A stretch of 64,000 bases of DNA, taken from positions 434,001-498,000 of the forward strand of contig JBBELK010000492.1 of assembly GCA_037783545.1 (NCBI GenBank), given 5' to 3'. The notes under the pieces were generated by a model. That model did no database searches. It was given only the letters and a program-made list of their open reading frames with translations, and was not told the DNA's origin. Shown piece by piece: positions 1 through 25,987 of this stretch; position 1 is the first letter of the stretch; each line of letters begins with the position of its first letter. The stretch comes from Henricia sp. BOLD:AAB3569. Lineage: Eukaryota > Echinodermata > Asteroidea > Spinulosida > Echinasteridae. Both the position numbers and the translations under genes were made by a program.

Positions 1-130
1 ACTGACTGGTTTCCGTACTTTGCTGGACTCCAAAATACGTTTTATAGAAATGGCTGTCTTTTGGTTGAGCGTCACCTTCAATGTTTCCATTCACCTGCAA
101 CCCAAAATTCCCTCCGCTATTTCTCCAGTT

Positions 131-201
131 GCATTGGTGGTTCAGTGGTAGAATTCTCGCCTTCCAAGCGGGAGACCCGGGTTCAATTCCCGGCTAATGC
201 A
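131..201 (+). tRNA. tRNA-Gly(TCC)
   Basis: Partial unit 0. Reference for the TCC type: 71 nt, no intron, no encoded CCA, anticodon loop CTTCCAA on stem CTCGC/GCGGG, acceptor GCATTGG/CTAATGC with one G-T wobble, A73. Later TCC entries marked consensus are identical to it. Confidence 0.96.
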
Positions 202-347
202 AAATAGCGGGTTCCCTGTACTTTTCCAGACTAGAAAGAAACGTTTCATAGAAATGGCCGTCTTTTGGTTGAGCGTCACCTTCTTTTCGGCACCCTCTGC
301 GCGGAATTATCCGAATTAGCCGAACATTTAGTCCGCACTTTCGAACA

Positions 348-418
348 GCACCGGTGGTTCAGTGGTAGAATTCTCGCCTGCCACGCGGGAGGCCCGGGTT
401 CGATTCCCGGCCGGTGCA
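348..418 (+). tRNA. tRNA-Gly(GCC)
   Basis: Partial unit 0. Reference for the GCC type: anticodon loop CTGCCAC, T loop TTCGATT, acceptor GCACCGG/CCGGTGC. The acceptor is fully paired and differs from the CCC gene on both strands of the stem. Confidence 0.97.
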
Positions 419-521
419 GATTGTTATAGATTCATTGTTTGACAGTTTTCTTGCAGGAGTAGTTTTACTTCAAGTGGGAATATGCCCGCAACCAAAATCT
501 CACTTCTAGCTTTTCTCGGGT

Positions 522-592
522 GCATTGGTGGTTCAGTGGTAGAATTCTCGCCTCCCACGCGGGAGACCCGGGTTCAATTCCCGGCCAATGCA
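522..592 (+). tRNA. tRNA-Gly(CCC)
   Basis: Unit 1. Reference for the CCC type: anticodon loop CTCCCAC, acceptor GCATTGG/CCAATGC fully paired, A73. As far as I recall it matches the vertebrate Gly-CCC type closely. Confidence 0.97.
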
Positions 593-708
593 AACTGACT
601 GGTTTCCGTACTTTGCTGGACTCCAAAATACGTTTTATAGAAATGGCTGTCACCTTCAATGTTTCCATTCACCTGCAACCCAAAATTCCCTCCGCTATTT
701 CTCCAGTT

Positions 709-779
709 GCATTGGTGGTTCAGTGGTAGAATTCTCGCCTTCCAAGCGGGAGACCCGGGTTCAATTCCCGGCTAATGCA
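709..779 (+). tRNA. tRNA-Gly(TCC)
   Basis: Unit 1, consensus. It follows the 15-bp spacer deletion. Confidence 0.96.
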
Positions 780-925
780 AAATAGCGGGTTCCCTGTACT
801 TTTCCAGACTCGAAAGAAACGTTTCATAGAAATGGCCGTCTTTTGGTTGAGCGTCACCTTCTTTTTGGCACCCTCTGCGCGGAATTATCCGAATTAGCCG
901 AACATTTAGTCCGCACTTTCGAACA

Positions 926-996
926 GCACCGGTGGTTCAGTGGTAGAATTCTCGCCTGCCACGCGGGAGGCCCGGGTTCGATTCCCGGCCGGTGCA
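926..996 (+). tRNA. tRNA-Gly(GCC)
   Basis: Unit 1, consensus. Confidence 0.97.
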
Positions 997-1099
997 GATT
1001 GTTATAGATTCATTGTTTGACAGTTTTCTTGCAGGAGTAGTTTTACTTCAAGTGGGAATATGCCCGCAACCAAAATCTCACTTCTAGCTTTTCTCGGGT

Positions 1100-1170
1100 G
1101 CATTGGTGGTTCAGTGGTAGAATTCTCGCCTCCCACGCGGGAGACCCGGGTTCAATTCCCGGCCAATGCA
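1100..1170 (+). tRNA. tRNA-Gly(CCC)
   Basis: Unit 2, consensus. Confidence 0.97.
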
Positions 1171-1295
1171 AACTGACTGGTTTCCGTACTTTGCTGGACT
1201 CCAAAATACGTTTTATAGAAATGGCTGTCTTTTGGTTGAGCGTCACCTTCAATGTTTCCATTCACCTGCAACCCAAAATTCCCTCCGCTATTTCT

Positions 1296-1339
1296 CGCCT
1301 TCCAAGCGGGAGACCCGGGTTCAATTCCCGGCTAATGCA
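1296..1339 (+). pseudogene. 5'-truncated tRNA-Gly(TCC)
   Basis: Unit 2. Only the last 44 nt remain (part of the anticodon stem to the 3' end). The A box and acceptor 5' strand are gone. The 33-bp deletion lies between two TTCTC words. Confidence 0.9.
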
Positions 1340-1485
1340 AAATAGCGGGTTCCCTGTACTTTTCCAGACTAGAAAGAAACGTTTCATAGAAATGGCCGTC
1401 TTTTGGTTGAGCGTCACCTTCTTTTCGGCACCCTCTGCGCGGAATTATCCGAATTAGCCGAACATTTAGTCCGCACTTTCGAACA

Positions 1486-1556
1486 GCACCGGTGGTTCAG
1501 TGGTAGAATTCTCGCCTGCCACGCGGGAGGCCCGGGTTCGATTCCCGGCCGGTGCA
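1486..1556 (+). tRNA. tRNA-Gly(GCC)
   Basis: Unit 2, consensus. Confidence 0.97.
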
Positions 1557-1659
1557 GATTGTTATAGATTCATTGTTTGACAGTTTTCTTGCAGGAGTAG
1601 TTTTACTTCAAGTGGGAATATGCCCGCAACCAAAATCTCACTTCTAGCTTTTCTCGGGT

Positions 1660-1730
1660 GCATTGGTGGTTCAGTGGTAGAATTCTCGCCTCCCACGCGG
1701 GAGACCCGGGTTCAATTCCCGGCCAATGCA
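1660..1730 (+). tRNA. tRNA-Gly(CCC)
   Basis: Unit 3, consensus. Confidence 0.97.
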
Positions 1731-1846
1731 AACTGACTGGTTTCCGTACTTTGCTGGACTCCAAAATACGTTTTATAGAAATGGCTGTCACCTTCAATGT
1801 TTCCATTCACCTGCAACCCAAAATTCCCTCCGCTATTTCTCCAGTT

Positions 1847-1917
1847 GCATTGGTGGTTCAGTGGTAGAATTCTCGCCTTCCAAGCGGGAGACCCGGGTTC
1901 AATTCCCGGCTAATGCA
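1847..1917 (+). tRNA. tRNA-Gly(TCC)
   Basis: Unit 3, consensus, after the 15-bp spacer deletion. Confidence 0.96.
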
Positions 1918-2063
1918 AAATAGCGGGTTCCCTGTACTTTTCCAGACTAGAAAGAAACGTTTCATAGAAATGGCCGTCTTTTGGTTGAGCGTCACCTTCT
2001 TTTTGGCACCCTCTGCGCGGAATTATCCGAATTAGCCGAACATTTAGTCCGCACTTTCGAACA

Positions 2064-3216: not shown

Positions 3217-3287
3217 GCACCGGTGGTTCAGTGGTAGAATTCTCGCCTTCCACGCGGGAGGCCCGGGTTCGATTCCCGGCCGGTGCA
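3217..3287 (+). tRNA. tRNA-Gly, GCC body with TCC anticodon
   Basis: Unit 5. G34 to T in an otherwise consensus GCC gene; it would read GGA. Confidence 0.92.
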
Positions 3288-3461: not shown

Positions 3462-3592
3462 AACTGACTGGTTTCCGTACTTTGCTGGACTCCAAAATAC
3501 GTTTTATAGAAATGGCTGTCTTTTGGTTGAGCGTCACCTTCAATGTTTCCATTCACCTGCAACCCAAAATTCCCTCCGCTATTTCTCCAGTT

Positions 3593-3663
3593 GCATTGGT
3601 GGTTCAGTGGTAGAATTCTCGCCTTCCAAGCGGGAGACCCGGGTTCAATTCCCGGCTAATGCA
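3593..3663 (+). tRNA. tRNA-Gly(TCC)
   Basis: Unit 6, consensus. Confidence 0.96.
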
Positions 3664-3809
3664 AAATAGCGGGTTCCCTGTACTTTTCCAGACTAGAAAG
3701 AAACGTTTCATAGAAATGGCCGTCTTTTGGTTGAGCGTCACCTTCTTTTCGGCACCCTCTGCGCGGAATTATCCGAATTAGCCGAACATTTAGTCCGCAC
3801 TTTCGAACA

Positions 3810-3880
3810 GCACCGGTGGTTCAGTGGTAGAATTCTCGCCTGCCACGCGGGAGGCCCGGGTTCGATTCCCGGCCGGTGCA
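3810..3880 (+). tRNA. tRNA-Gly(GCC)
   Basis: Unit 6, consensus. Confidence 0.97.
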
Positions 3881-3983
3881 GATTGTTATAGATTCATTGT
3901 TTGACAGTTTTCTTGCAGGAGTAGTTTTACTTCAAGTGGGAATATGCCCGCAACCAAAATCTAACTTCTAGCTTTTCTCGGGT

Positions 3984-4054
3984 GCATTGGTGGTTCAGTG
4001 GTAGAATTCTCGCCTCCCACGCGGGAGACCCGGGTTCAATTCCCGGCCAATGCA
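3984..4054 (+). tRNA. tRNA-Gly(CCC)
   Basis: Unit 7, consensus. Confidence 0.97.
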
Positions 4055-4185
4055 AACTGACTGGTTTCCGTACTTTGCTGGACTCCAAAATACGTTATAT
4101 AGAAATGGCTGTCTTTTGGTTGAGCGTCACCTTCAATGTTTCCATTCACCTGCAACCCAAAATTCCCTCCGCTATTTCTCCAGTT

Positions 4186-4256
4186 GCATTGGTGGTTCAG
4201 TGGTAGAATTCTCGCCTTCCAAGCGGGAGACCCGGGTTCAATTCCCGGCTAATGCA
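4186..4256 (+). tRNA. tRNA-Gly(TCC)
   Basis: Unit 7, consensus. Confidence 0.96.
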
Positions 4257-4402
4257 AAATAGCGGGTTCCCTGTACTTTTCCAGACTAGAAAGAAACGTT
4301 TCATAGAAATGGCCGCCTTTTGGTTGAGCGTCACCTTCTTTTTGGTACCCTCTGCGCGGAATTATCCGAATTAGCCGAACATTTAGTCCGCACTTTCGAA
4401 CA

Positions 4403-4473
4403 GCACCGGTGGTTCAGTGGTAGAATTCTCGCCTGCCACGCGGGAGGCCCGGGTTCGATTCCCGGCCGGTGCA
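4403..4473 (+). tRNA. tRNA-Gly(GCC)
   Basis: Unit 7, consensus. Confidence 0.97.
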
Positions 4474-4576
4474 GATTGTTATAGATTCATTGTTTGACAG
4501 TTTTCTTGCAGGAGTAGTTTTACTTCAAGTGGGAATATGCCCGCAACCAAAATCTCACTTCTAGCTTTTCTCGGGT

Positions 4577-4647
4577 GCATTGGTGGTTCAGTGGTAGAAT
4601 TCTCGCCTCCCACGCGGGAGACCCGGGTTCAATTCCCGGCCAATGCA
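4577..4647 (+). tRNA. tRNA-Gly(CCC)
   Basis: Unit 8, consensus. Confidence 0.97.
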
Positions 4648-4772
4648 AACTGACTGGTTTCCGTACTTTGCTGGACTCCAAAATACGTTTTATAGAAATG
4701 GCTGTCTTTTGGTTGAGCGTCACCTTCAATGTTTCCATTCACCTGCAACCCAAATTTCCCTCCGCTATTTCT

Positions 4773-4816
4773 CGCCTTCCAAGCGGGAGACCCGGGTTCA
4801 ATTCCCGGCTAATGCA
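4773..4816 (+). pseudogene. 5'-truncated tRNA-Gly(TCC)
   Basis: Unit 8, same 33-bp deletion. Confidence 0.9.
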
Positions 4817-4962
4817 AAATAGCGGGTTCCCTGTACTTTTCCAGACTAGAAAGAAACGTTTCATAGAAATGGCCGTCTTTTGGTTGAGCGTCACCTTCTT
4901 TTCGGCACCCTCTGCGCGGAATTATCCGAATTAGCCGAACATTTAGTCCGCACTTTCGAACA

Positions 4963-5033
4963 GCACCGGTGGTTCAGTGGTAGAATTCTCGCCTTCCACG
5001 CGGGAGGCCCGGGTTCGATTCCCGGCCGGTGCA
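4963..5033 (+). tRNA. tRNA-Gly, GCC body with TCC anticodon
   Basis: Unit 8. G34 to T. It sits next to a truncated TCC gene, so it is the only full-length TCC reader in this unit. Confidence 0.92.
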
Positions 5034-5136
5034 GATTGTTATAGATTCATTGTTTGACAGTTTTCTTGCAGGAGTAGTTTTACTTCAAGTGGGTATATGC
5101 CCGCAACCAAAATCTCACTTCTAGCTTTTCTCGGGT

Positions 5137-5207
5137 GCATTGGTGGTTCAGTGGTAGAATTCTCGCCTCCCACGCGGGAGACCCGGGTTCAATTCCCGGC
5201 CAATGCA
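5137..5207 (+). tRNA. tRNA-Gly(CCC)
   Basis: Unit 9, consensus. Confidence 0.97.
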
Positions 5208-5338
5208 AACTGACTGGTTTCCGTACTTTGCTGGACTCCAAAATACGTTTTATAGAAATGGCTGTCTTTTGGTTGAGCGTCACCTTCAATGTTTCCATTC
5301 ACCTGCAACCCAAAAATCCCTCCGCTATTTCTCCAGTT

Positions 5339-5409
5339 GCATTGGTGGTTCAGTGGTAGAATTCTCGCCTTCCAAGCGGGAGACCCGGGTTCAATTCCCG
5401 GCTAATGCG
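5339..5409 (+). tRNA. tRNA-Gly(TCC), altered discriminator
   Basis: Unit 9. A73 to G. A73 is an identity element for eukaryotic glycyl-tRNA synthetase, so charging may be poor. Confidence 0.85.
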
Positions 5410-5555
5410 AAATAGCGGGTTCCCTGTACTTTTCTAGACTAGAAAGAAACGTTTCATAGAAATGGCCGTCTTTTGGTTGAGCGTCACCTTCTTTTCGGCA
5501 CCCTCTGCGCGGAATTATCCGAATTAGCCGAACATTTAGTCCGCACTTTCGAACA

Positions 5556-5626
5556 GCACCGGTGGTTCAGTGGTAGAATTCTCGCCTGCCACGCGGGAGG
5601 CCCGGGTTCGATTCCCGGCCGGTGCA
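5556..5626 (+). tRNA. tRNA-Gly(GCC)
   Basis: Unit 9, consensus. Confidence 0.97.
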
Positions 5627-5729
5627 AATTGTTATAGATTCATTGTTTGACAGTTTTCTTGCAGGAGTAGTTTTACTTCAAGTGGGAATATGCCCGCAAC
5701 CAAAATCTCACTTCTAGCTTTTCTCGGGT

Positions 5730-5800
5730 GCATTGGTGGTTCAGTGGTAGAATTCTCGCCTCCCACGCGGGAGACCCGGGTTCAATTCCCGGCCAATGCA
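5730..5800 (+). tRNA. tRNA-Gly(CCC)
   Basis: Unit 10, consensus. Confidence 0.97.
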
Positions 5801-5931
5801 AACTGACTGGTTTCCGTACTTTGCTGGACTCCAAAATGCGTTTTATAGAAATGGCTGTCTTTTGGTTGAGCGTCACCTTCAATGTTTCCATTCACCTGCA
5901 ACCCAAAAATCCCTCCGCTATTTCTCCAGTT

Positions 5932-6002
5932 GCATTGGTGGTTCAGTGGTAGAATTCTCGCCTTCCAAGCGGGAGACCCGGGTTCAATTCCCGGCTAATG
6001 CA
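5932..6002 (+). tRNA. tRNA-Gly(TCC)
   Basis: Unit 10, consensus. Confidence 0.96.
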
Positions 6003-6148
6003 AAATAGCGGGTTCCCTGTACTTTTCCAGACTAGAAAGAAACGTTTCATAGAAATGGCCGTCTTTTGGTTGAGCGTCACCTTCTTTTCGGCACCCTCTG
6101 CGCGGAATTATCCGAATTAGCCGAACATTTAGTCCGCACTTTCGAACA

Positions 6149-6219
6149 GCACCGGTGGTTCAGTGGTAGAATTCTCGCCTGCCACGCGGGAGGCCCGGGT
6201 TCGATTCCCGGCCGGTGCA
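6149..6219 (+). tRNA. tRNA-Gly(GCC)
   Basis: Unit 10, consensus. Confidence 0.97.
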
Positions 6220-6322
6220 GATTGTTATAGATTCATTGTTTGACAGTTTTCTTGCAGGAGTAGTTTTACTTCAAGTGGGAATATGCCCGCAACCAAAATC
6301 TCACTTCTAGCTTTTCTCGGGT

Positions 6323-6393
6323 GCATTGGTGGTTCAGTGGTAGAATTCTCGCCTCCCACGCGGGAGACCCGGGTTCAATTCCCGGCCAATGCA
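6323..6393 (+). tRNA. tRNA-Gly(CCC)
   Basis: Unit 11, consensus. Confidence 0.97.
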
Positions 6394-6524
6394 AACTGAC
6401 TGGTTTCCGTACTTTGCTGGACTCCAAAATACGTTTTATAGAAATGGCTGTCTTTTGGTTGAGCGTCACCTTCAATGTTTCCATTCACCTGCAACCCAAA
6501 ATTCCCTCCGCTATTTCTCCAGTT

Positions 6525-6595
6525 GCATTGGTGGTTCAGTGGTAGAATTCTCGCCTTCCAAGCGGGAGACCCGGGTTCAATTCCCGGCTAATGCA
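6525..6595 (+). tRNA. tRNA-Gly(TCC)
   Basis: Unit 11, consensus. Confidence 0.96.
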
Positions 6596-6741
6596 AAATA
6601 GCGGGTTCCCTGTACTTTTCCAGACTAGAAAGAAACGTTTCATAGAAATGGCCGTCTTTTGGTTGAGCGTCACCTTCTTTTTGGCACCCTCTGCGCGGAA
6701 TTATCCGAATTAGCCGAACATTTAGTCCGCACTTTCGAACA

Positions 6742-6812
6742 GCACCGGTGGTTCAGTGGTAGAATTCTCGCCTGCCACGCGGGAGGCCCGGGTTCGATTC
6801 CCGGCCGGTGCA
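6742..6812 (+). tRNA. tRNA-Gly(GCC)
   Basis: Unit 11, consensus. Confidence 0.97.
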
Positions 6813-6915
6813 GATTGTTATAGATTCATTGTTTGACAGTTTTCTTGCAGGAGTAGTTTTACTTCAAGTGGGAATATGCCCGCAACCAAAATCTCACTTC
6901 TGGCTTTTCTCGGGT

Positions 6916-6986
6916 GCATTGGTGGTTCAGTGGTAGAATTCTCGCCTCCCACGCGGGAGACCCGGGTTCAATTCCCGGCCAATGCA
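6916..6986 (+). tRNA. tRNA-Gly(CCC)
   Basis: Unit 12, consensus. Confidence 0.97.
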
Positions 6987-7111
6987 AACTGACTGGTTTC
7001 CGTACTTTGCTGGACTCCAAAATACGTTTTATAGAAATGGCTGTCTTTTGGTTGAGCGTCACCTTCAATGTTTCCATTCACCTGCAACCCAAAATTCCCT
7101 CCGCTATTTCT

Positions 7112-7546: not shown

Positions 7547-7677
7547 AACTGACTGGTTTCCGTACTTTGCTGGACTCCAAAATACGTTATATAGAAATGG
7601 CTGTCTTTTGGTTGAGCGTCACCTTCAATGTTTCCATTCACCTGCAACCCAAAATTCCCTCCGCTATTTCTCCAGTT

Positions 7678-7748
7678 GCATTGGTGGTTCAGTGGTAGAA
7701 TTCTCGCCTTCCAAGCGGGAGACCCGGGTTCAATTCCCGGCTAATGCA
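7678..7748 (+). tRNA. tRNA-Gly(TCC)
   Basis: Unit 13, consensus. Confidence 0.96.
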
Positions 7749-7894
7749 AAATAGCGGGTTCCCTGTACTTTTCCAGACTAGAAAGAAACGTTTCATAGAA
7801 ATGGCCGCCTTTTGGTTGAGCGTCACCTTCTTTTTGGTACCCTCTGCGCGGAATTATCCGAATTAGCCGAACATTTAGTCCGCACTTTCGAACA

Positions 7895-7965
7895 GCACCG
7901 GTGGTTCAGTGGTAGAATTCTCGCCTGCCACGCGGGAGGCCCGGGTTCGATTCCCGGCCGGTGCA
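7895..7965 (+). tRNA. tRNA-Gly(GCC)
   Basis: Unit 13, consensus. Confidence 0.97.
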
Positions 7966-8068
7966 GATTGTTATAGATTCATTGTTTGACAGTTTTCTTG
8001 CAGGAGTAGTTTTACTTCAAGTGGGAATATGCCCGCAACCAAAATCTCACTTCTAGCTTTTCTCGGGT

Positions 8069-8139
8069 GCATTGGTGGTTCAGTGGTAGAATTCTCGCCT
8101 CCCACGCGGGAGACCCGGGTTCAATTCCCGGCCAATGCA
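8069..8139 (+). tRNA. tRNA-Gly(CCC)
   Basis: Unit 14, consensus. Confidence 0.97.
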
Positions 8140-8264
8140 AACTGACTGGTTTCCGTACTTTGCTGGACTCCAAAATACGTTTTATAGAAATGGCTGTCTT
8201 TTGGTTGAGCGTCACCTTCAATGTTTCCATTCACCTGCAACCCAAATTTCCCTCCGCTATTTCT

Positions 8265-8308
8265 CGCCTTCCAAGCGGGAGACCCGGGTTCAATTCCCGG
8301 CTAATGCA
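8265..8308 (+). pseudogene. 5'-truncated tRNA-Gly(TCC)
   Basis: Unit 14, same 33-bp deletion. Confidence 0.9.
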
Positions 8309-8454
8309 AAATAGCGGGTTCCCTGTACTTTTCCAGACTAGAAAGAAACGTTTCATAGAAATGGCCGTCTTTTGGTTGAGCGTCACCTTCTTTTCGGCAC
8401 CCTCTGCGCGGAATTATCCGAATTAGCCGAACATTTAGTCCGCACTTTCGAACA

Positions 8455-8525
8455 GCACCGGTGGTTCAGTGGTAGAATTCTCGCCTTCCACGCGGGAGGC
8501 CCGGGTTCGATTCCCGGCCGGTGCA
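8455..8525 (+). tRNA. tRNA-Gly, GCC body with TCC anticodon
   Basis: Unit 14. G34 to T, the higher-order-repeat partner of the gene at 4963. Confidence 0.92.
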
Positions 8526-8628
8526 GATTGTTATAGATTCATTGTTTGACAGTTTTCTTGCAGGAGTAGTTTTACTTCAAGTGGGTATATGCCCGCAACC
8601 AAAATCTCACTTCTAGCTTTTCTCGGGT

Positions 8629-8699
8629 GCATTGGTGGTTCAGTGGTAGAATTCTCGCCTCCCACGCGGGAGACCCGGGTTCAATTCCCGGCCAATGCA
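8629..8699 (+). tRNA. tRNA-Gly(CCC)
   Basis: Unit 15, consensus. Confidence 0.97.
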
Positions 8700-8830
8700 A
8701 ACTGACTGGTTTCCGTACTTTGCTGGACTCCAAAATACGTTTTATAGAAATGGCTGTCTTTTGGTTGAGCGTCACCTTCAATGTTTCCATTCACCTGCAA
8801 CCCAAAAATCCCTCCGCTATTTCTCCAGTT

Positions 8831-8901
8831 GCATTGGTGGTTCAGTGGTAGAATTCTCGCCTTCCAAGCGGGAGACCCGGGTTCAATTCCCGGCTAATGC
8901 G
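8831..8901 (+). tRNA. tRNA-Gly(TCC), altered discriminator
   Basis: Unit 15. A73 to G, the partner of the gene at 5339. Confidence 0.85.
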
Positions 8902-9047
8902 AAATAGCGGGTTCCCTGTACTTTTCTAGACTAGAAAGAAACGTTTCATAGAAATGGCCGTCTTTTGGTTGAGCGTCACCTTCTTTTCGGCACCCTCTGC
9001 GCGGAATTATCCGAATTAGCCGAACATTTAGTCCGCACTTTCGAACA

Positions 9048-9118
9048 GCACCGGTGGTTCAGTGGTAGAATTCTCGCCTGCCACGCGGGAGGCCCGGGTT
9101 CGATTCCCGGCCGGTGCA
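9048..9118 (+). tRNA. tRNA-Gly(GCC)
   Basis: Unit 15, consensus. Confidence 0.97.
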
Positions 9119-9221
9119 AATTGTTATAGATTCATTGTTTGACAGTTTTCTTGCAGGAGTAGTTTTACTTCAAGTGGGAATATGCCCGCAACCAAAATCT
9201 CACTTCTAGCTTTTCTCGGGT

Positions 9222-9292
9222 GCATTGGTGGTTCAGTGGTAGAATTCTCGCCTCCCACGCGGGAGACCCGGGTTCAATTCCCGGCCAATGCA
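9222..9292 (+). tRNA. tRNA-Gly(CCC)
   Basis: Unit 16, consensus. Confidence 0.97.
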
Positions 9293-9423
9293 AACTGACT
9301 GGTTTCCGTACTTTGCTGGACTCCAAAATGCGTTTTATAGAAATGGCTGTCTTTTGGTTGAGCGTCACCTTCAATGTTTCCATTCACCTGCAACCCAAAA
9401 ATCACTCCGCTATTTCTCCAGTT

Positions 9424-9494
9424 GCATTGGTGGTTCAGTGGTAGAATTCTCGCCTTCCAAGCGGGAGACCCGGGTTCAATTCCCGGCTAATGCA
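9424..9494 (+). tRNA. tRNA-Gly(TCC)
   Basis: Unit 16, consensus. Confidence 0.96.
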
Positions 9495-9640
9495 AAATAG
9501 CGGGTTCCCTGTACTTTTCCAGACTAGAAAGAAACGTTTCATAGAAATGGCCGTCTTTTGGTTGAGCGTCACCTTCTTTTCGGCACCCTCTGCGCGGAAT
9601 TATCCGAATTAGCCGAACATTTAGTCCGCACTTTCGAACA

Positions 9641-9711: not shown

Positions 9712-9814
9712 GATTGTTATAGATTCATTGTTTGACAGTTTTCTTGCAGGAGTAGTTTTACTTCAAGTGGGAATATGCCCGCAACCAAAATCTCACTTCT
9801 AGCTTTTCTCGGGT

Positions 9815-16391: not shown

Positions 16392-16494
16392 GACTGTTAT
16401 AGATTCATTGTTTGACAGTTTTCTTGCAGGAGTAGTTTTACTTCAAGTGGGAATATGCCCGCAACCAAAATCTCACTTCTAGCTTTTCTCGGGT

Positions 16495-16565
16495 GCATTG
16501 GTGGTTCAGTGGTAGAATTCTCGCCTCCCACGCGGGAGACCCGGGTTCAATTCCCGGCCAATGCA
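16495..16565 (+). tRNA. tRNA-Gly(CCC)
   Basis: Unit 28, consensus. Confidence 0.97.
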
Positions 16566-16681
16566 AACTGACTGGTTTCCGTACTTTGCTGGACTCCAAA
16601 ATACGTTTTATAGAAATGGCTGTCACCTTCAATGTTTCCATTCACCTGCAACCCAAAATTCCCTCCGCTATTTCTCCAGTT

Positions 16682-16752
16682 GCATTGGTGGTTCAGTGGT
16701 AGAATTCTCGCCTTCCAAGCGGGAGACCCGGGTTCAATTCCCGGCTAATGCA
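16682..16752 (+). tRNA. tRNA-Gly(TCC)
   Basis: Unit 28, consensus, after the 15-bp spacer deletion also seen in units 1, 3 and 34. Confidence 0.96.
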
Positions 16753-16898
16753 AAATAGCGGGTTCCCTGTACTTTTCCAGACTAGAAAGAAACGTTTCAT
16801 AGAAATGGCCGTCTTTTGGTTGAGCGTCACCTTCTTTTCGGCACCCTCTGCGCGGAATTATCCGAATTAGCCGAACATTTAGTCCGCACTTTCGAACA

Positions 16899-16969
16899 GC
16901 ACCGGTGGTTCAGTGGTAGAATTCTCGCCTGCCACGCGGGAGGCCCGGGTTCGATTCCCGGCCGGTGCA
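16899..16969 (+). tRNA. tRNA-Gly(GCC)
   Basis: Unit 28, consensus. Confidence 0.97.
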
Positions 16970-17072
16970 GATTGTTATAGATTCAATGTTTGACAGTTTT
17001 CTTGCAGGAGTAGTTTTACTTCAAGTGGGAATATGCCCGCAACCAAAATCTCACTTCTAGCTTTTCTCGGGT

Positions 17073-17143
17073 GCATTGGTGGTTCAGTGGTAGAATTCTC
17101 GCCTCCCACGCGGGAGACCCGGGTTCAATTCCCGGCCAATGCA
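17073..17143 (+). tRNA. tRNA-Gly(CCC)
   Basis: Unit 29, consensus. Confidence 0.97.
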
Positions 17144-17274
17144 AACTGACTGGTTTCCGTACTTTGCTGGACTCCAAAATACGTTTTATAGAAATGGCTG
17201 TCTTTTGGTTGAGCGTCACCTTCAATGTTTCCATTCACCTGCAACCCAAAATTCCCTCCGCTATTTCTCCAGTT

Positions 17275-17345
17275 GCATTGGTGGTTCAGTGGTAGAATTC
17301 TCGCCTTCCAAGCGGGAGACCCGGGTTCAATTCCCGGCTAATGCA
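17275..17345 (+). tRNA. tRNA-Gly(TCC)
   Basis: Unit 29, consensus. Confidence 0.96.
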
Positions 17346-17491
17346 AAATAGCGGGTTCCCTGTACTTTTCCAGACTAGAAAGAAACGTTTCATAGAAATG
17401 GCCGTCTCTTGGTTGAGCGTCACCTTCTTTTCGGCACCCTCTGCGCGGAATTATCCGAATTAGCCGAACATTTAGTCCGCACTTTCGAACA

Positions 17492-17562
17492 GCACCGGTG
17501 GTTCAGTGGTATAATTCTCGCCTTCCACGCGGTAGGCCCGGGTTCGATTCCCGGCCGGTGCA
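17492..17562 (+). tRNA. tRNA-Gly, GCC body with TCC anticodon and stem changes
   Basis: Unit 29. Same three changes as at 13356. Confidence 0.85.
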
Positions 17563-17665
17563 GATTGTTATAGATTCATTGTTTGACAGTTTTCTTGCAG
17601 GAGTAGTTTTACTTCAAGTGGGAATATGCCCGCAACCAAAATCTCACTTCTAGCTTTTCTCGGGT

Positions 17666-17736
17666 GCATTGGTGGTTCAGTGGTAGAATTCTCGCCTCCC
17701 ACGCGGGAGACCCGGGTTCAATTCCCGGCCAATGCA
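17666..17736 (+). tRNA. tRNA-Gly(CCC)
   Basis: Unit 30, consensus. Confidence 0.97.
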
Positions 17737-17867
17737 AACTGACTGGTTTCCGTACTTTGCTGGACTCCAAAATACGTTTTATAGAAATGGCTGTCTTTTG
17801 GTTGAGCGTCACCTTCAATGTTTCCATTCACCTGCAACCCAAAAATCCCTCCGCTATTTCTCCAGTT

Positions 17868-17938
17868 GCATTGGTGGTTCAGTGGTAGAATTCTCGCCTT
17901 CCAAGCGGGAGACCCGGGTTCAATTCCCGGCTAATGCA
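17868..17938 (+). tRNA. tRNA-Gly(TCC)
   Basis: Unit 30, consensus. Confidence 0.96.
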
Positions 17939-18084
17939 AAATAGCGGGTTCCCTGTACTTTTCCAGACTAGAAAGAAACGTTTCATAGAAATGGCCGTCT
18001 TTTGGTTGAGCGTCACCTTCTTTTCGGCACCCTCTGCGCGGAATTATCCGAATTAGCCGAACATTTAGTCCGCACTTTCGAACA

Positions 18085-18155
18085 GCACCGGTGGTTCAGT
18101 GGTAGAATTCTCGCCTGCCACGCGGGAGGCCCGGGTTCGATTCCCGGCCGGTGCA
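18085..18155 (+). tRNA. tRNA-Gly(GCC)
   Basis: Unit 30, consensus. Confidence 0.97.
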
Positions 18156-18258
18156 GATTGTTATAGATTCATTGTTTGACAGTTTTCTTGCAGGAGTAGT
18201 TTTACTTCAAGTGGGAATATGCCCGCAACCAAAATCTCACTTCTAGCTTTTCTCGGGT

Positions 18259-18329
18259 GCATTGGTGGTTCAGTGGTAGAATTCTCGCCTCCCACGCGGG
18301 AGACCCGGGTTCAATTCCCGGCCAATGCA
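18259..18329 (+). tRNA. tRNA-Gly(CCC)
   Basis: Unit 31, consensus. Confidence 0.97.
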
Positions 18330-18460
18330 AACTGACTGGTTTCCGTACTTTGCTGGACTCCAAAATACGTTTTATAGAAATGGCTGTCTTTTGGTTGAGC
18401 GTCACCTTCAATGTTTCCATTCACTTGCAACCCAAAATTCCCTCCGCTATTTCTCCAGTT

Positions 18461-18531
18461 GCATTGGTGGTTCAGTGGTAGAATTCTCGCCTTCCAAGCG
18501 GGAGACCCGGGTTCAATTCCCGGCTAATGCA
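18461..18531 (+). tRNA. tRNA-Gly(TCC)
   Basis: Unit 31, consensus. Confidence 0.96.
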
Positions 18532-18677
18532 AAATAGCGGGTTCCCTGTACTTTTCCAGACTAGAAAGAAACGTTTCATAGAAATGGCCGTATTTTGGTT
18601 GAGCGTCACCTTCTTTTCGGCACCCTCTGCGCGGAATTATCCGAAATAGCCGAACATTTAGTCCGCACTGTCGAACA

Positions 18678-18748
18678 GCATCGGTGGTTCAGTGGTAGAA
18701 TTCTCGCCTGCCACGCGGGAGGCCCGGGTTCGATTCCCGGCCGGTGCA
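18678..18748 (+). tRNA. tRNA-Gly(GCC), acceptor wobble
   Basis: Unit 31. C4 to T gives a T-G wobble at 4-69, which is tolerated. Confidence 0.94.
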
Positions 18749-18851
18749 GATTGTTATAGATTCATTGTTTGATAGTTTTCTTGCAGGAGTAGTTTTACTT
18801 CAAGTGGGAATATGCCCGCAACCAAAATCTCACTTCTAGCTTTTCTCGGGT

Positions 18852-18922
18852 GCATTGGTGGTTCAGTGGTAGAATTCTCGCCTCCCACGCGGGAGACCCG
18901 GGTTCAATTCCCGGCCAATGCA
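18852..18922 (+). tRNA. tRNA-Gly(CCC)
   Basis: Unit 32, consensus. Confidence 0.97.
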
Positions 18923-19053
18923 AACTGACTGGTTTCCGTACTTTGCTGGACTCCAAAATACGTTTTATAGAAATGGCTGTCTTTTGGTTGAGCGTCACCT
19001 TCAATGTTTCCATTCACCTGCAACCCAAAATTCCCTCCGCTATTTCTCCAGTT

Positions 19054-19124
19054 GCATTGGTGGTTCAGTGGTAGAATTCTCGCCTTCCAAGCGGGAGACC
19101 CGGGTTCAATTCCCGGCTAATGCA
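19054..19124 (+). tRNA. tRNA-Gly(TCC)
   Basis: Unit 32, consensus. Confidence 0.96.
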
Positions 19125-19270
19125 AAATAGCGGGTTCCCTGTACTTTTCCAGACTAGAAAGAAACGTTTCATAGAAATGGCCGTCTTTTGGTTGAGCGTC
19201 ACCTTCTTTTCGGCACCCTCTGCGCGGAATTATCCGAATTAGCCGAACATTTAGTCCGCACTTTCGAACA

Positions 19271-19341
19271 GCACCGGTGGTTCAGTGGTAGAATTCTCGC
19301 CTGCCACGCGGGAGGCCCGGGTTCGATTCCCGGCCGGTGCA
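19271..19341 (+). tRNA. tRNA-Gly(GCC)
   Basis: Unit 32, consensus. Confidence 0.97.
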
Positions 19342-19444
19342 GATTGTTAAAGATTCATTGTTTGACAGTTTTCTTGCAGGAGTAGTTTTACTTCAAGTGG
19401 GAATATGCCCGCAACCAAAATCTCACTTCTAGCTTTTCTCGGGT

Positions 19445-19515
19445 GCATTGGTGGTTCAGTGGTACAATTCTCGCCTCCCACGCGGGAGACCCGGGTTCAA
19501 TTCCCGGCCAATGCA
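19445..19515 (+). tRNA. tRNA-Gly(CCC), D-stem variant
   Basis: Unit 33. G22 to C, as at 15902. Confidence 0.88.
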
Positions 19516-19646
19516 AACTGACTGGTTTCCGTACTTTGCTGGACTCCAAAATACGTTTTATAGAAATGGCTGTCTTTTGGTTGAGCGTCACCTTCAATGT
19601 TTCCATTCACCTGCAACCCAAAATTCCCTCCGCTATTTCTCCAGTT

Positions 19647-19717
19647 GCATTGGTGGTTCAGTGGTAGAATTCTCGCCTTCCAAGCGGGAGACCCGGGTTC
19701 AATTCCCGGCTAATGCA
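19647..19717 (+). tRNA. tRNA-Gly(TCC)
   Basis: Unit 33, consensus. Confidence 0.96.
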
Positions 19718-19863
19718 AAATAGCGGGTTCCCTGTACTTTTCCAGACTAGAAAGAAACGTTTCATAGAAATGGCCGTCTTTTGGTTGAGCGTCACCTTCT
19801 TTTCGGCACCCTCTGCGCGGAATTATCCGAATTAGCCGAACATTTAGTCCGCACTTTCGAACA

Positions 19864-19934
19864 GCACCGGTGGTTCAGTGGTAGAATTCTCGCCTGCCAC
19901 GCGGGAGGCCCGGGTTCGATTCCCGGCCGGTGCA
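19864..19934 (+). tRNA. tRNA-Gly(GCC)
   Basis: Unit 33, consensus. Confidence 0.97.
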
Positions 19935-20037
19935 GACTGTTATAGATTCATTGTTTGACAGTTTTCTTGCAGGAGTAGTTTTACTTCAAGTGGGAATATG
20001 CCCGCAACCAAAATCTCACTTCTAGCTTTTCTCGGGT

Positions 20038-20108
20038 GCATTGGTGGTTCAGTGGTAGAATTCTCGCCTCCCACGCGGGAGACCCGGGTTCAATTCCCGG
20101 CCAATGCA
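20038..20108 (+). tRNA. tRNA-Gly(CCC)
   Basis: Unit 34, consensus. Confidence 0.97.
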
Positions 20109-20224
20109 AACTGACTGGTTTCCGTACTTTGCTGGACTCCAAAATACGTTTTATAGAAATGGCTGTCACCTTCAATGTTTCCATTCACCTGCAACCCAAA
20201 ATTCCCTCCGCTATTTCTCCAGTT

Positions 20225-20295
20225 GCATTGGTGGTTCAGTGGTAGAATTCTCGCCTTCCAAGCGGGAGACCCGGGTTCAATTCCCGGCTAATGCA
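20225..20295 (+). tRNA. tRNA-Gly(TCC)
   Basis: Unit 34, consensus, after the 15-bp deletion. Confidence 0.96.
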
Positions 20296-20441
20296 AAATA
20301 GCGGGTTCCCTGTACTTTTCCAGACTAGAAAGAAACGTTTCATAGAAATGGCCGTCTTTTGGTTGAGCGTCACCTTCTTTTCGGCACCCTCTGCGCGGAA
20401 TTATCCGAATTAGCCGAACATTTAGTCCGCACTTTCGAACA

Positions 20442-20512
20442 GCACCGGTGGTTCAGTGGTAGAATTCTCGCCTGCCACGCGGGAGGCCCGGGTTCGATTC
20501 CCGGCCGGTGCA
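20442..20512 (+). tRNA. tRNA-Gly(GCC)
   Basis: Unit 34, consensus. Confidence 0.97.
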
Positions 20513-20615
20513 GATTGTTATAGATTCAATGTTTGACAGTTTTCTTGCAGGAGTAGTTTTACTTCAAGTGGGAATATGCCCGCAACCAAAATCTCACTTC
20601 TAGCTTTTCTCGGGT

Positions 20616-20686
20616 GCATTGGTGGTTCAGTGGTAGAATTCTCGCCTCCCACGCGGGAGACCCGGGTTCAATTCCCGGCCAATGCA
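20616..20686 (+). tRNA. tRNA-Gly(CCC)
   Basis: Unit 35, consensus. Confidence 0.97.
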
Positions 20687-20817
20687 AACTGACTGGTTTC
20701 CGTACTTTGCTGGACTCCAAAATACGTTTTATAGAAATGGCTGTCTTTTGGTTGAGCGTCACCTTCAATGTTTCCATTCACCTGCAACCCAAAATTCCCT
20801 CCGCTATTTCTCCAGTT

Positions 20818-20888
20818 GCATTGGTGGTTCAGTGGTAGAATTCTCGCCTTCCAAGCGGGAGACCCGGGTTCAATTCCCGGCTAATGCA
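20818..20888 (+). tRNA. tRNA-Gly(TCC)
   Basis: Unit 35, consensus. Confidence 0.96.
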
Positions 20889-21034
20889 AAATAGCGGGTT
20901 CCCTGTACTTTTCCAGACTAGAAAGAAACGTTTCATAGAAATGGCCGTCTCTTGGTTGAGCGTCACCTTCTTTTCGGCACCCTCTGCGCGGAATTATCCG
21001 AATTAGCCGAACATTTAGTCCGCACTTTCGAACA

Positions 21035-21105
21035 GCACCGGTGGTTCAGTGGTATAATTCTCGCCTTCCACGCGGTAGGCCCGGGTTCGATTCCCGGCCG
21101 GTGCA
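21035..21105 (+). tRNA. tRNA-Gly, GCC body with TCC anticodon and stem changes
   Basis: Unit 35. Same three changes as at 13356. Confidence 0.85.
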
Positions 21106-21208
21106 GATTGTTATAGATTCATTGTTTGACAGTTTTCTTGCAGGAGTAGTTTTACTTCAAGTGGGAATATGCCCGCAACCAAAATCTCACTTCTAGCTTT
21201 TCTCGGGT

Positions 21209-21279
21209 GCATTGGTGGTTCAGTGGTAGAATTCTCGCCTCCCACGCGGGAGACCCGGGTTCAATTCCCGGCCAATGCA
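21209..21279 (+). tRNA. tRNA-Gly(CCC)
   Basis: Unit 36, consensus. Confidence 0.97.
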
Positions 21280-21410
21280 AACTGACTGGTTTCCGTACTT
21301 TGCTGGACTCCAAAATACGTTTTATAGAAATGGCTGTCTTTTGGTTGAGCGTCACCTTCAATGTTTCCATTCACCTGCAACCCAAAAATCCCTCCGCTAT
21401 TTCTCCAGTT

Positions 21411-21481
21411 GCATTGGTGGTTCAGTGGTAGAATTCTCGCCTTCCAAGCGGGAGACCCGGGTTCAATTCCCGGCTAATGCA
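21411..21481 (+). tRNA. tRNA-Gly(TCC)
   Basis: Unit 36, consensus. Confidence 0.96.
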
Positions 21482-21627
21482 AAATAGCGGGTTCCCTGTA
21501 CTTTTCCAGACTAGAAAGAAACGTTTCATAGAAATGGCCGTCTTTTGGTTGAGCGTCACCTTCTTTTCGGCACCCTCTGCGCGGAATTATCCGAATTAGC
21601 CGAACATTTAGTCCGCACTTTCGAACA

Positions 21628-21698
21628 GCACCGGTGGTTCAGTGGTAGAATTCTCGCCTGCCACGCGGGAGGCCCGGGTTCGATTCCCGGCCGGTGCA
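21628..21698 (+). tRNA. tRNA-Gly(GCC)
   Basis: Unit 36, consensus. Confidence 0.97.
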
Positions 21699-21801
21699 GA
21701 TTGTTATAGATTCATTGTTTGACAGTTTTCTTGCAGGAGTAGTTTTACTTCAAGTGGGAATATGCCCGCAACCAAAATCTCACTTCTAGCTTTTCTCGGG
21801 T

Positions 21802-21872
21802 GCATTGGTGGTTCAGTGGTAGAATTCTCGCCTCCCACGCGGGAGACCCGGGTTCAATTCCCGGCCAATGCA
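21802..21872 (+). tRNA. tRNA-Gly(CCC)
   Basis: Unit 37, consensus. Confidence 0.97.
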
Positions 21873-22003
21873 AACTGACTGGTTTCCGTACTTTGCTGGA
21901 CTCCAAAATACGTTTTATAGAAATGGCTGTCTTTTGGTTGAGCGTCACCTTCAATGTTTCCATTCACTTGCAACCCAAAATTCCCTCCGCTATTTCTCCA
22001 GTT

Positions 22004-22074
22004 GCATTGGTGGTTCAGTGGTAGAATTCTCGCCTTCCAAGCGGGAGACCCGGGTTCAATTCCCGGCTAATGCA
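22004..22074 (+). tRNA. tRNA-Gly(TCC)
   Basis: Unit 37, consensus. Confidence 0.96.
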
Positions 22075-22220
22075 AAATAGCGGGTTCCCTGTACTTTTCC
22101 AGACTAGAAAGAAACGTTTCATAGAAATGGCCGTATTTTGGTTGAGCGTCACCTTCTTTTCGGCACCCTCTGCGCGGAATTATCCGAAATAGCCGAACAT
22201 TTAGTCCGCACTGTCGAACA

Positions 22221-22291
22221 GCATCGGTGGTTCAGTGGTAGAATTCTCGCCTGCCACGCGGGAGGCCCGGGTTCGATTCCCGGCCGGTGCA
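22221..22291 (+). tRNA. tRNA-Gly(GCC), acceptor wobble
   Basis: Unit 37. C4 to T. Confidence 0.94.
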
Positions 22292-22394
22292 GATTGTTAT
22301 AGATTCATTGTTTGATAGTTTTCTTGCAGGAGTAGTTTTACTTCAAGTGGGAATATGCCCGCAACCAAAATCTCACTTCTAGCTTTTCTCGGGT

Positions 22395-22465
22395 GCATTG
22401 GTGGTTCAGTGGTAGAATTCTCACCTCCCACGCGGGAGACCCAGGTTCAATTCCCGGCCAATGCA
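22395..22465 (+). tRNA. tRNA-Gly(CCC), two stem mismatches
   Basis: Unit 38. G30 to A and G51 to A open one anticodon-stem and one T-stem pair. Confidence 0.8.
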
Positions 22466-22596
22466 AACTGACTGGTTTCCGTACTTTGCTGGACTCCAAA
22501 ATACGTTTTATAGAAATGGCTGTCTTTTGGTTGAGCGTCACCTTCAATGTTTCCATTCACCTGCAACCCAAAATTCCCTCCGCTATTTCTCCAGTT

Positions 22597-23633: not shown

Positions 23634-23704
23634 GCATTGGTGGTTCAGTGGTAGAATTCTCTCCTCCCACGCGGGAGACCCGGGTTCAATTCCCGGCCAA
23701 TGCA
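23634..23704 (+). tRNA. tRNA-Gly(CCC) in the TCC slot
   Basis: Unit 40. The 5' flank (CAGTTGCATTGG) is that of a TCC gene, but the body and 3' flank are CCC, with G30 to T. It looks like gene conversion or crossover between slots. Confidence 0.85.
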
Positions 23705-23835
23705 AACTGACTGGTTTCCGTACTTTGCTGGACTCCAAAATACGTTTTATAGAAATGGCTGTCTTTTGGTTGAGCGTCACCTTCAATGTTTCCATTCACC
23801 TGCAACCCAAAATTCCCTCCGCTATTTCTCCAGTT

Positions 23836-23906
23836 GCATTGGTGGTTCAGTGGTAGAATTCTCGCCTTTCAAGCGGGAGACCCGGGTTCAATTCCCGGCT
23901 AATGCA
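23836..23906 (+). tRNA. tRNA-Gly body with TTC anticodon
   Basis: Unit 40. C35 to T turns the anticodon to UUC, which would read GAA (Glu). C35 is also an identity base for glycyl-tRNA synthetase, so the product is more likely poorly charged than toxic. May be a pseudogene. Confidence 0.75.
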
Positions 23907-24052
23907 AAATAGCGGGTTCCCTGTACTTTTCCAGACTAGAAAGAAACGTTTCATAGAAATGGCCGTCTTTTGGTTGAGCGTCACCTTCTTTTCGGCACCC
24001 TCTGCGCGGAATTATCCGAATTAGCCGAACATTTAGTCCGCACTATCGAACA

Positions 24053-24123: not shown

Positions 24124-24226
24124 GATTGTTATAGATTCATTGTTTGACAGTTTTCTTGCAGGAGTATTTTTACTTCAAGCGGGAATATGCCCGCAACCAA
24201 AATCTCACTTCTAGCTTTTCTCGGGT

Positions 24227-24297
24227 GCATTGGTGGTTCAGTGGTAGAATTCTCGCCTCCCACGCGAGAGACCGGGGTTCAATTCCCGGCCAATGCA
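24227..24297 (+). tRNA. tRNA-Gly(CCC), T-stem mismatch
   Basis: Unit 41. G42 to A improves the anticodon stem; C50 to G opens pair 50-64. Confidence 0.82.
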
Positions 24298-24428
24298 AAC
24301 TGACTGGTTTCCGTACTTTGCTGGACTCCAAAATACGTTTTATAGAAATGGCTGTCTTTTGGTTGAGCGTCACCTTCAATGTTTCCATTCACCTGCAACC
24401 CAAAATTCCCTCCGCTTTTTCTCCAGTT

Positions 24429-24499
24429 GCATTGGTGGTTCAGTGGTAGAATTCTCTCCTCCCACGCGGGAGACCCGGGTTCAATTCCCGGCCAATGCA
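24429..24499 (+). tRNA. tRNA-Gly(CCC) in the TCC slot
   Basis: Unit 41. Same converted gene as at 23634, G30 to T. Confidence 0.85.
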
Positions 24500-24630
24500 A
24501 ACTGACTGGTTTCCGTACTTTGCTGGACTTCAAAATACGTTTTATAGAAATGGCTGTCTTTTGGTTGAGCGTCACCTTCAATGTTTCCATTCACCTGCAA
24601 CCCAAAATTCCCTCCGCTATTTCTCCATTT

Positions 24631-24701
24631 CCATTGGTGGTTCAGTGGTAGAATTCTCGCCTTCCAAGCGGGAGACCCGGGTTCAATTCCCGGCTAATGC
24701 A
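24631..24701 (+). tRNA. tRNA-Gly(TCC), first base changed
   Basis: Unit 41. G1 to C destroys pair 1-72, needed for 5' processing and charging; probably defective. Confidence 0.75.
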
Positions 24702-24847
24702 AAATAGCGGGTTCCCTGTACTTTTCCAGACTAGAAAGAAACGTTTCATAGAAATGGCCGTCTTTTGGTTGAGCGTCACCTTCTTTTCGGCACCCTCTGC
24801 GCGGAATTATCCGAATTAGCCGAACATTTAGTCCGCACTGTCGAACA

Positions 24848-24918
24848 GCATCGGTGGTTCAGTGGTAGAATTCTCGCCTGCCACGCGGGAGGCCCGGGTT
24901 CGATTCCCGGCCGGTGCA
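24848..24918 (+). tRNA. tRNA-Gly(GCC), acceptor wobble
   Basis: Unit 41. C4 to T. Last full-length GCC gene of the array. Confidence 0.94.
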
Positions 24919-25021
24919 GATTGTTATAGATTCATTGTTTGACAGTTTTCTTGCAGGAGTAGTTTTACTTCAAGTGGGAATATGCCCGCAACCAAAATCT
25001 CACTTCTATCTTTTCTCGGGT

Positions 25022-25092
25022 GCATTGGTGGTTCAGTGGTAGAATTCTCGCCTCCCACGCGGGAGACCCGGGTTCAATTCCCGGCCAATGCA
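25022..25092 (+). tRNA. tRNA-Gly(CCC)
   Basis: Unit 42, consensus. Confidence 0.97.
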
Positions 25093-25223
25093 AACTGACT
25101 GGTTTCCGTACTTTGCTGGACTCCAAAATACGTTTTATAGAAATGGCTGTCTTTTGGTTGAGCGTCACCTTCAATGTTTCCATTCACCTGCAACCCAAAA
25201 TTCCCTCCGCTGTTTCTCCAGTT

Positions 25224-25294
25224 GCATTGGTGGTTCAGTGGTAGAATTCTCGCCTTCCAAGCGGGAGACCCGGGTTCAATTCCCGGCTAATGCA
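25224..25294 (+). tRNA. tRNA-Gly(TCC)
   Basis: Unit 42, consensus; first of a 97-bp tandem pair. Confidence 0.96.
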
Positions 25295-25320
25295 AAATTC
25301 CCTCCGCTATTTCTCCAGTT

Positions 25321-25391
25321 GCATTGGTGGTTCAGTGGTAGAATTCCCGCCTTCCCAGCGGGAGACCCGGGTTCAATTCCCGGCTAATGCA
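25321..25391 (+). tRNA. tRNA-Gly(TCC), position-37 variant
   Basis: Unit 42. T28 to C strengthens the stem; A37 to C puts a pyrimidine beside the anticodon, which is rare. Confidence 0.82.
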
Positions 25392-25511
25392 AAATAGCGG
25401 GTTCCCTGTACTTTTCCAGACTAGAAAGAAACGTTTTATAGAAATGGCCGGCGTCTTTTGGTTGAGCGTCACCTTTTTTTCGGCACCCTCTGCGCGGAAT
25501 TATCCGAATTA

Positions 25512-25554
25512 GCCTGCCACGCGGGAGGCCTGGGTTCGATTCCCGGCCGATGCA
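25512..25554 (+). pseudogene. 5'-truncated tRNA-Gly(GCC)
   Basis: Only the anticodon-loop-to-3'-end part remains, joined to the spacer word GAATTA. The A box is gone. Confidence 0.88.
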
Positions 25555-25657
25555 GATTGTTATAGATTCATTGTTTGACAATTTTCTTGCAGGAGTAGTT
25601 TTACTTCAAGTGGGAATATTCCCGCAACCAAAATCTCACTTCTAGCTTTTCTCGGGT

Positions 25658-25728
25658 ACATTGGTGGTTCAGTGGTAGAATTCTCGCCTCCCACGCGGGA
25701 GACCCGGGTTCGATTCCCGGCCGATGCA
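25658..25728 (+). tRNA. tRNA-Gly(CCC), chimeric, first base changed
   Basis: CCC anticodon with a GCC-type T loop (TTCGATT). G1 to A breaks pair 1-72; acceptor 3' strand CCGATGC. It is followed directly by the GCC-type trailer, so it is a CCC/GCC recombinant. Confidence 0.78.
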
Positions 25729-25831
25729 GATTGTTATAGATTCATTGTTTGACAATTTTCTTGCAGGAGTAGTTTTACTTCAAGTGGGAATATTCCCGCA
25801 ACCAAAATCTCACTTCTAGCTTTTCTCGGGT

Positions 25832-25902
25832 ACATTGGTGGTTCAGTGGTAGAATTCTCGCCTCCCACGCGGGAGACCCGGGTTCGATTCCCGGCCGATG
25901 CA
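25832..25902 (+). tRNA. tRNA-Gly(CCC), chimeric, first base changed
   Basis: Duplicate of the gene at 25658, 174 bp away. Last tRNA of the array. Confidence 0.78.
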
Positions 25903-25987
25903 GATTGTTATAGATTCATTGTTTGACAGTTTTCTTGCAGGATTAGTTTTACTTCAAGTGGGAATATGCCCGCAACTAAAATCTCAC

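Follow-up and report, generated by a model that had tools for sequence, protein, structure and literature searches.

Clusters of transfer RNA (tRNA) genes devoted to one amino acid are a recognised class (PMC2888827), and some described systems combine several tRNA genes within one repeated unit. The Arabidopsis SYY cluster (tRNA-Ser/Tyr/Tyr) comprises 27 units in almost 40 kb (PMC10701932), its head-to-tail unit holding three tRNA genes, and its core genes being accompanied by flanking variants and pseudogenes (PMC12308677). The human 1q23.3 tRNA variable number tandem repeat (VNTR) is a tandem macrosatellite with several tRNA genes per unit, Gly among them, and 98% identity between units (PMC4041453). 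In these respects, both resemble the locus analysed here, a tandem array of tRNA-Gly genes on the plus strand of a 64-kb stretch of DNA ('the window'; contig JBBELK010000492.1, positions 434,001–498,000) from the sea star Henricia sp. BOLD:AAB3569 (assembly GCA_037783545.1). With a probability of roughly 0.72, we read the locus as a tandem tRNA array of the ordinary kind, in which local duplication and changes of anticodon gave rise to the isoacceptor cassette and unequal exchange spread it. The way in which the array grew would most likely make the all-isoacceptor cassette a by-product of that growth.

Structure of the array

ARAGORN returned 126 tRNA genes in the window, all on the plus strand and all within 130–25903, and Rfam RF00005 likewise gave 126 matches above the gathering score of 29 (range 48.0–67.3 bits), the agreement of the two lists being judged by eye. 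The array occupies 1–25987, its left end cut by the window edge and its right end lying at approximately 25987; within 25988–64000, there is no tRNA call, and blastn at E up to 1 gave no match to the array unit on the plus or the minus strand. These data confirm a preliminary description of 126 tRNA genes on a single strand over at least 26 kb. They also bear out the giant tandem tRNA-Gly array that it describes, with all three isoacceptors found in most of the units. Its count of 126 glycine genes has to be lowered to 125, as one TCC-slot gene (23835–23907, plus strand; ARAGORN) combines a glycine body with the anticodon TTC (Glu). If transcribed, this gene would, under tRNA identity rules, probably make a poor substrate for GlyRS.

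We distinguished 41 head-to-tail, near-identical units on the one strand, with ends placed by hand from blastn hits. Unit length is 593 bp in 31 of these, 578 bp in four, 560 bp in five and 561 bp in one; unit 22 (12416–13008), the head of which is recombinant, is counted as 593 bp by our own cut. Compared with the reference unit (3463–4055, plus strand), 30 full-length units of 593 bp are 98.4–100% identical (blastn), indicating that the repeat is not due to chance. The gene order within a unit is TCC, GCC, CCC, with a spacer before each gene, and the three genes of the reference unit lie at 3593–3663, 3810–3880 and 3984–4054, respectively. The commonest sequence of each slot is represented on the plus strand by the genes at 131–201 (TCC slot, 32 identical copies), 348–418 (GCC slot, 28 identical copies) and 522–592 (CCC slot, 32 identical copies). 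Altogether, 117 of the 126 genes fall inside the 41 units, and the remaining nine lie outside them, at 12357 and from 23190 onward.

The full TCC-GCC-CCC set of anticodons is present in 29 of the 41 units; in 19 of the 41, all three anticodons are present and every gene is also free of broken pairs and has A73. The other 12 units are TCC-TCC-CCC (five), TTC-GCC-CCC (one) or units with a truncated TCC gene (six, the remaining genes being GCC-CCC in four and TCC-CCC in two). Seven GCC-slot genes carry a TCC anticodon through a one-base change (3217–3287, and at 4963, 8455, 11981, 13356, 17492 and 21035; all plus strand), and three of these seven also have two pair-breaking changes. Across the 126 genes, the anticodons are CCC (46), TCC (45), GCC (34) and the single TTC in its glycine body, and the dose of the three isoacceptors is therefore unequal. 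Hence, of what had been proposed for the unit, the length of 593 bp stands as the modal value, while neither the completeness of the cassette in each unit nor the equal dose of the isoacceptors is upheld.

The genes are 71 nt in length, with A73 in 124 of 126, and CCA is not encoded. As regards the tRNA fold, every gene scores above the Rfam gathering threshold, and 107 of the 126 contain no broken pair, 15 contain one and four contain two; the concern, voiced beforehand, that most copies might be pseudogenes was thus not borne out. With six genes that have other flanks set apart, the first TTTT downstream of the gene is found at 20 nt in 38/38 TCC-slot genes, at 27 nt in 39/39 GCC-slot genes and at 40 nt in 40/43 CCC-slot genes (59 nt in two and 41 nt in one). 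Both internal promoter boxes are present in the array genes, judged by eye against the consensus. The array genes have the appearance of nuclear tRNA-Gly genes of the RNA polymerase III (Pol III) type, with terminators and boxes that look usable, and the intact copies can probably be transcribed, which would add to the glycine tRNA pool and so contribute to translation. A tRNA-derived short interspersed nuclear element was considered and rejected on account of the complete 71-nt genes, the A73 in 124 of 126 copies and the tandem layout, together with the lack of any tRNA call or unit match within 25988–64000 of the window.

Descent of the isoacceptors and unequal exchange

The three genes had been described as sharing almost one body sequence. 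This is confirmed, as the consensus bodies agree at 68 of 71 positions for TCC and CCC, 64 for GCC and CCC and 62 for TCC and GCC. The slot-to-slot differences preserve the tRNA fold: none of the three reference genes has a broken pair, and acceptor pairs 4:67 and 5:66 are altered on both sides between slots, i.e. they are compensated. The spacers downstream of the CCC and TCC genes are homologous (63 of 74 aligned columns identical), and for the GCC flanks the matches are short only. The likeness of both bodies and spacers suggests that the CCC and TCC genes come from a common ancestral monomer and are linked by an anticodon change. Two time scales are apparent, with the differences between slots seemingly old and those between units young.

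Evidence of exchange between units is found throughout the array. Units are most similar to the unit six places away, with a mean of 2.67 differences in the left half vs 4.27–5.56 at the other lags (lags 1–12) and 5.17 in the right half vs at least 6.27. A block at 4056–6987 recurs at 7548–10479 with one mismatch in 2932 bp, and a six-unit block at 15381–18923 recurs at 18924–22466 with two mismatches in 3543 bp (all plus strand). Four plus-strand genes are hybrids that join the flanks of different slots, as crossovers within the shared tRNA body would produce. Two of them (23634–23704 and 24429–24499; blastn and flank comparison) possess a TCC-slot upstream flank, a CCC anticodon and a CCC-slot downstream flank. 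The other two (25658–25728 and 25832–25902) possess a CCC upstream flank and 5′ half, a GCC-like 3′ half and a GCC downstream flank; the first acceptor pair of the gene at 25658–25728 is A:C, and its second copy lies 174 bp further on. Towards the right edge the array decays: of the 26 genes in the last bin, 17 have a sequence other than the three commonest, vs 3–6 of 24–26 in each of the four other bins. Near-identical block copies, hybrid genes and edge decay together indicate unequal exchange with homogenisation, the edges being poorly homogenised, which is the usual picture.

Damaged copies have been carried along. The 560-bp unit at 1172–1731 (plus strand) has lost the 5′ 28 nt of its TCC gene, including the A box, and comparison of the junction in this unit revealed a 33-bp deletion between two copies of TTCTC; the truncated TCC sequence is the one present in six of the 41 units.

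We propose that a single local Gly tRNA gene, through duplication and changes of anticodon, would have given rise to all three isoacceptor genes, with the TCC gene being a CCC gene altered at 3 of 71 sites if descent ran in the direction that we infer. The resulting trimer would then have spread and been homogenised by unequal exchange, in which six-unit blocks were copied and crossovers took place within the almost identical tRNA bodies. Under this scheme, individual copies would be dispensable and the isoacceptor ratio would not be tuned.

Variation in genes and spacers

For the young differences between units, the 213 gene sites hold 19 distinct variants and the 380 spacer sites hold 38, a ratio of 0.89 (95% confidence interval (CI) 0.49–1.59), with indels not counted as variants and positions 1–70 of unit 22 left out because this head is recombinant rather than mutated. 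The head, from 12416 on, supplies 22 of the 60 spacer variants, and 38 remain without it. Damaging changes, i.e. those that fall in a pair, in the anticodon or at an unpaired position that is conserved, account for 16 of the 19 gene variants vs 65% expected (p=0.09). No significant evidence that purifying selection acts on the array copies, compared with the spacers, emerges from these counts.

Several points weigh against this conclusion and against the reading of the locus that draws on it. When the head of unit 22 is kept, variable sites number 18/213 in genes vs 54/380 in spacers (p=0.049). CpG sites are denser in the genes (34/213 vs 34/380 in spacers), and non-CpG variants amount to 13/179 in genes vs 34/346 in spacers. 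A mild deficit of variants in the genes is possible, and the CI allows for an approximately halved gene rate on account of the low divergence (6.55 mean pairwise differences across units 1–39, recombinant unit 22 included). Furthermore, redundant copies can lack constraint at the level of the copy even if selection acts on the entire array.

Possible roles of the array

Four proposals as to what the array does, and one as to whether all of it is real, have to be weighed. By analogy with Xenopus, it may be stage-gated, i.e. off in most tissues and on in oocytes or early embryos in order to load translation. The oocyte-specific tandem tRNA genes of Xenopus are reported in a commentary to be Pol III targets marked by 5-formylcytosine at zygotic genome activation (PMC11500080), and a similar role has been suggested, as a proposal only, for the tRNA genes of zebrafish Chr4. 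The argument for the sea star is one of analogy from beginning to end, and we regard stage gating as possible but, on the whole, unlikely.

Alternatively, the locus could be a largely silent satellite that merely carries tRNA genes, their expression being negligible. The neutral-looking variation, the higher-order blocks and the amplification of damaged copies would be in keeping with this, and Arabidopsis SYY is described as silent in most tissues (PMC12308677); however, with 107 of 126 genes lacking a broken pair, and with terminators and promoter boxes that look usable, we find a silent satellite doubtful.

The array might, in contrast, be the main glycine decoding locus, in which an anticodon-switched TCC gene derived from a CCC body would serve GGA, all GGN tRNAs would come from one co-regulated tandem locus and their balance would drift by recombination. 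This we consider improbable.

The preliminary description had tentatively linked the cassette to demand, the three isoacceptors being held at equal dose for collagen or other glycine-rich proteins. All three anticodons are indeed present in most units, and most genes are intact. Arabidopsis SYY is reported to serve a Ser/Tyr-rich glycoprotein, with collagen named as a possible metazoan parallel (PMC12308677). In the sea urchin Strongylocentrotus purpuratus, tRNA gene copy number is reported to correlate with codon use genome-wide, with GGC showing, among the Gly codons, the strongest tie to codon bias and the preferred Gly codon differing between two gene groups (PMC3704236). This correlation would favour dose mattering in general, but the ratio of the sea-star array does not fit it.

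The data from the array itself argue against demand matching. The dose is 46:45:34, only 29/41 units are complete, a broken TCC gene is present in 6/41 units and copy-level constraint is not significant. Two genes flank the array within the window, and in ten of their exon pieces glycine is encoded by GGC (24), GGT (14), GGA (10) and GGG (10). Consequently, the GCC tRNA would decode 38 of 58 glycines (GGC+GGT), yet its anticodon is the rarest of the array, with 34 of the 125 Gly genes. The disparity is significant (GGY codons 38/58 vs 34 GCC and 91 TCC+CCC genes; Fisher p=1.5e-6), the comparison being one of 58 codons from two ordinary, non-collagen genes with the gene dose of the array only. 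The CCC anticodon, which is dedicated to GGG, is the commonest. A balanced or collagen-type glycine demand is therefore not supported, and we judge it highly improbable that such a demand shaped the cassette.

Finally, it is very improbable that part of the length was falsely expanded during assembly, for example by haplotypes joined end to end, as simple joining could account for blocks with one to two mismatches over approximately 3 kb but would not produce the private variants, indels, hybrids and right-edge decay.

Read as an ordinary tandem array, the locus is a clean example from nature of isoacceptors for a single amino acid that would have arisen, and would still be exchanged, inside one tandem array. 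The closeness of TCC to CCC, the GCC slot turned TCC in seven genes and the hybrids at the edge are evidence of this. The array thereby offers a way of asking whether the dose of tRNA genes in giant arrays is under selection or subject to drift.

Flanking region

Two protein-coding genes were recognised beyond the array. Exons of an MCT14-like monocarboxylate transporter lie at 30445–37665 (plus strand), of which the exon at 36535–37665 has a best match of 48%, the four best named matches being sea stars (44–46%). An ABHD6-like monoacylglycerol lipase gene with at least seven exon pieces lies at 51411–62225 (minus strand); the query of seven joined exon pieces matched Acanthaster planci at 70%, Asterias amurensis at 66% and the brittle star Amphiura filiformis at 44% (among the best 120 of 176 hits), a pattern that points to a sea star. 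A Pfam search of eight flank frames returned MFS_1 in two frames of the transporter, one of them below the cut-off (21.3 vs 33.4 bits), and no match at E 0.001 in the other six. An open frame at 48748–49257 (minus strand) resembles, by eye, the C-terminal fragment of the reverse transcriptase of a long interspersed nuclear element, with no Pfam match at E 0.001. At 60922–61233, CGGGATCCCGG is abundant in a short tandem repeat that is free of stops in frames of either strand.

Within the array, the spacer that precedes the GCC slot contains the motif GCACCCTCTG, with 40 occurrences in all. Just beyond the array, GCGCCCTCTG, which differs from it by one base, occurs at 26041–26050 and 26403–26412 and may belong to a dispersed repeat. 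Taken together, the two motifs give 42 matches vs 0.12 expected. A CTCF-like boundary, by analogy with human 1q23.3, was set aside for these motifs owing to their poor fit, by eye, to the CTCF consensus.

Comparison with known systems

Arabidopsis SYY differs from the Henricia array in being a plant cluster that serves two amino acids and for which expression and a deletion phenotype are reported (PMC12308677). Human 1q23.3 has a 7.3-kb unit with five genes for four amino acids on both strands and a CTCF site (PMC4041453), whereas the sea-star unit measures 593 bp and is confined to one strand and to Gly. The Xenopus oocyte arrays likewise consist of tandem tRNA genes in a deuterostome, but stage-specific activation is reported for them (PMC11500080). 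The silk-gland tRNA-Ala cluster of Bombyx is likewise a tandem repeat of tRNA genes that serve a single amino acid, although the amino acid is alanine and the cluster is tied to silk demand (cited in PMC12308677). The tRNA clusters of Nematostella and teleosts are comparable in having fifty and more members and a turnover without regular pattern; a unit with all isoacceptors is not described for them in the cited passages (PMC2888827). A total of 125 Gly genes is not exceptional beside the 14,926 and 6,779 tRNAs reported for two assemblies of Asterias amurensis, figures that give number and do not extend to arrangement or intactness; unevenly assembled tandem arrays could produce the spread between the two. 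Among the matches listed in the open-licence PMC literature, none reports an all-isoacceptor Gly tandem unit. Set beside these systems, the less usual feature of the Henricia array is its short unit with exactly three isoacceptors of one amino acid.

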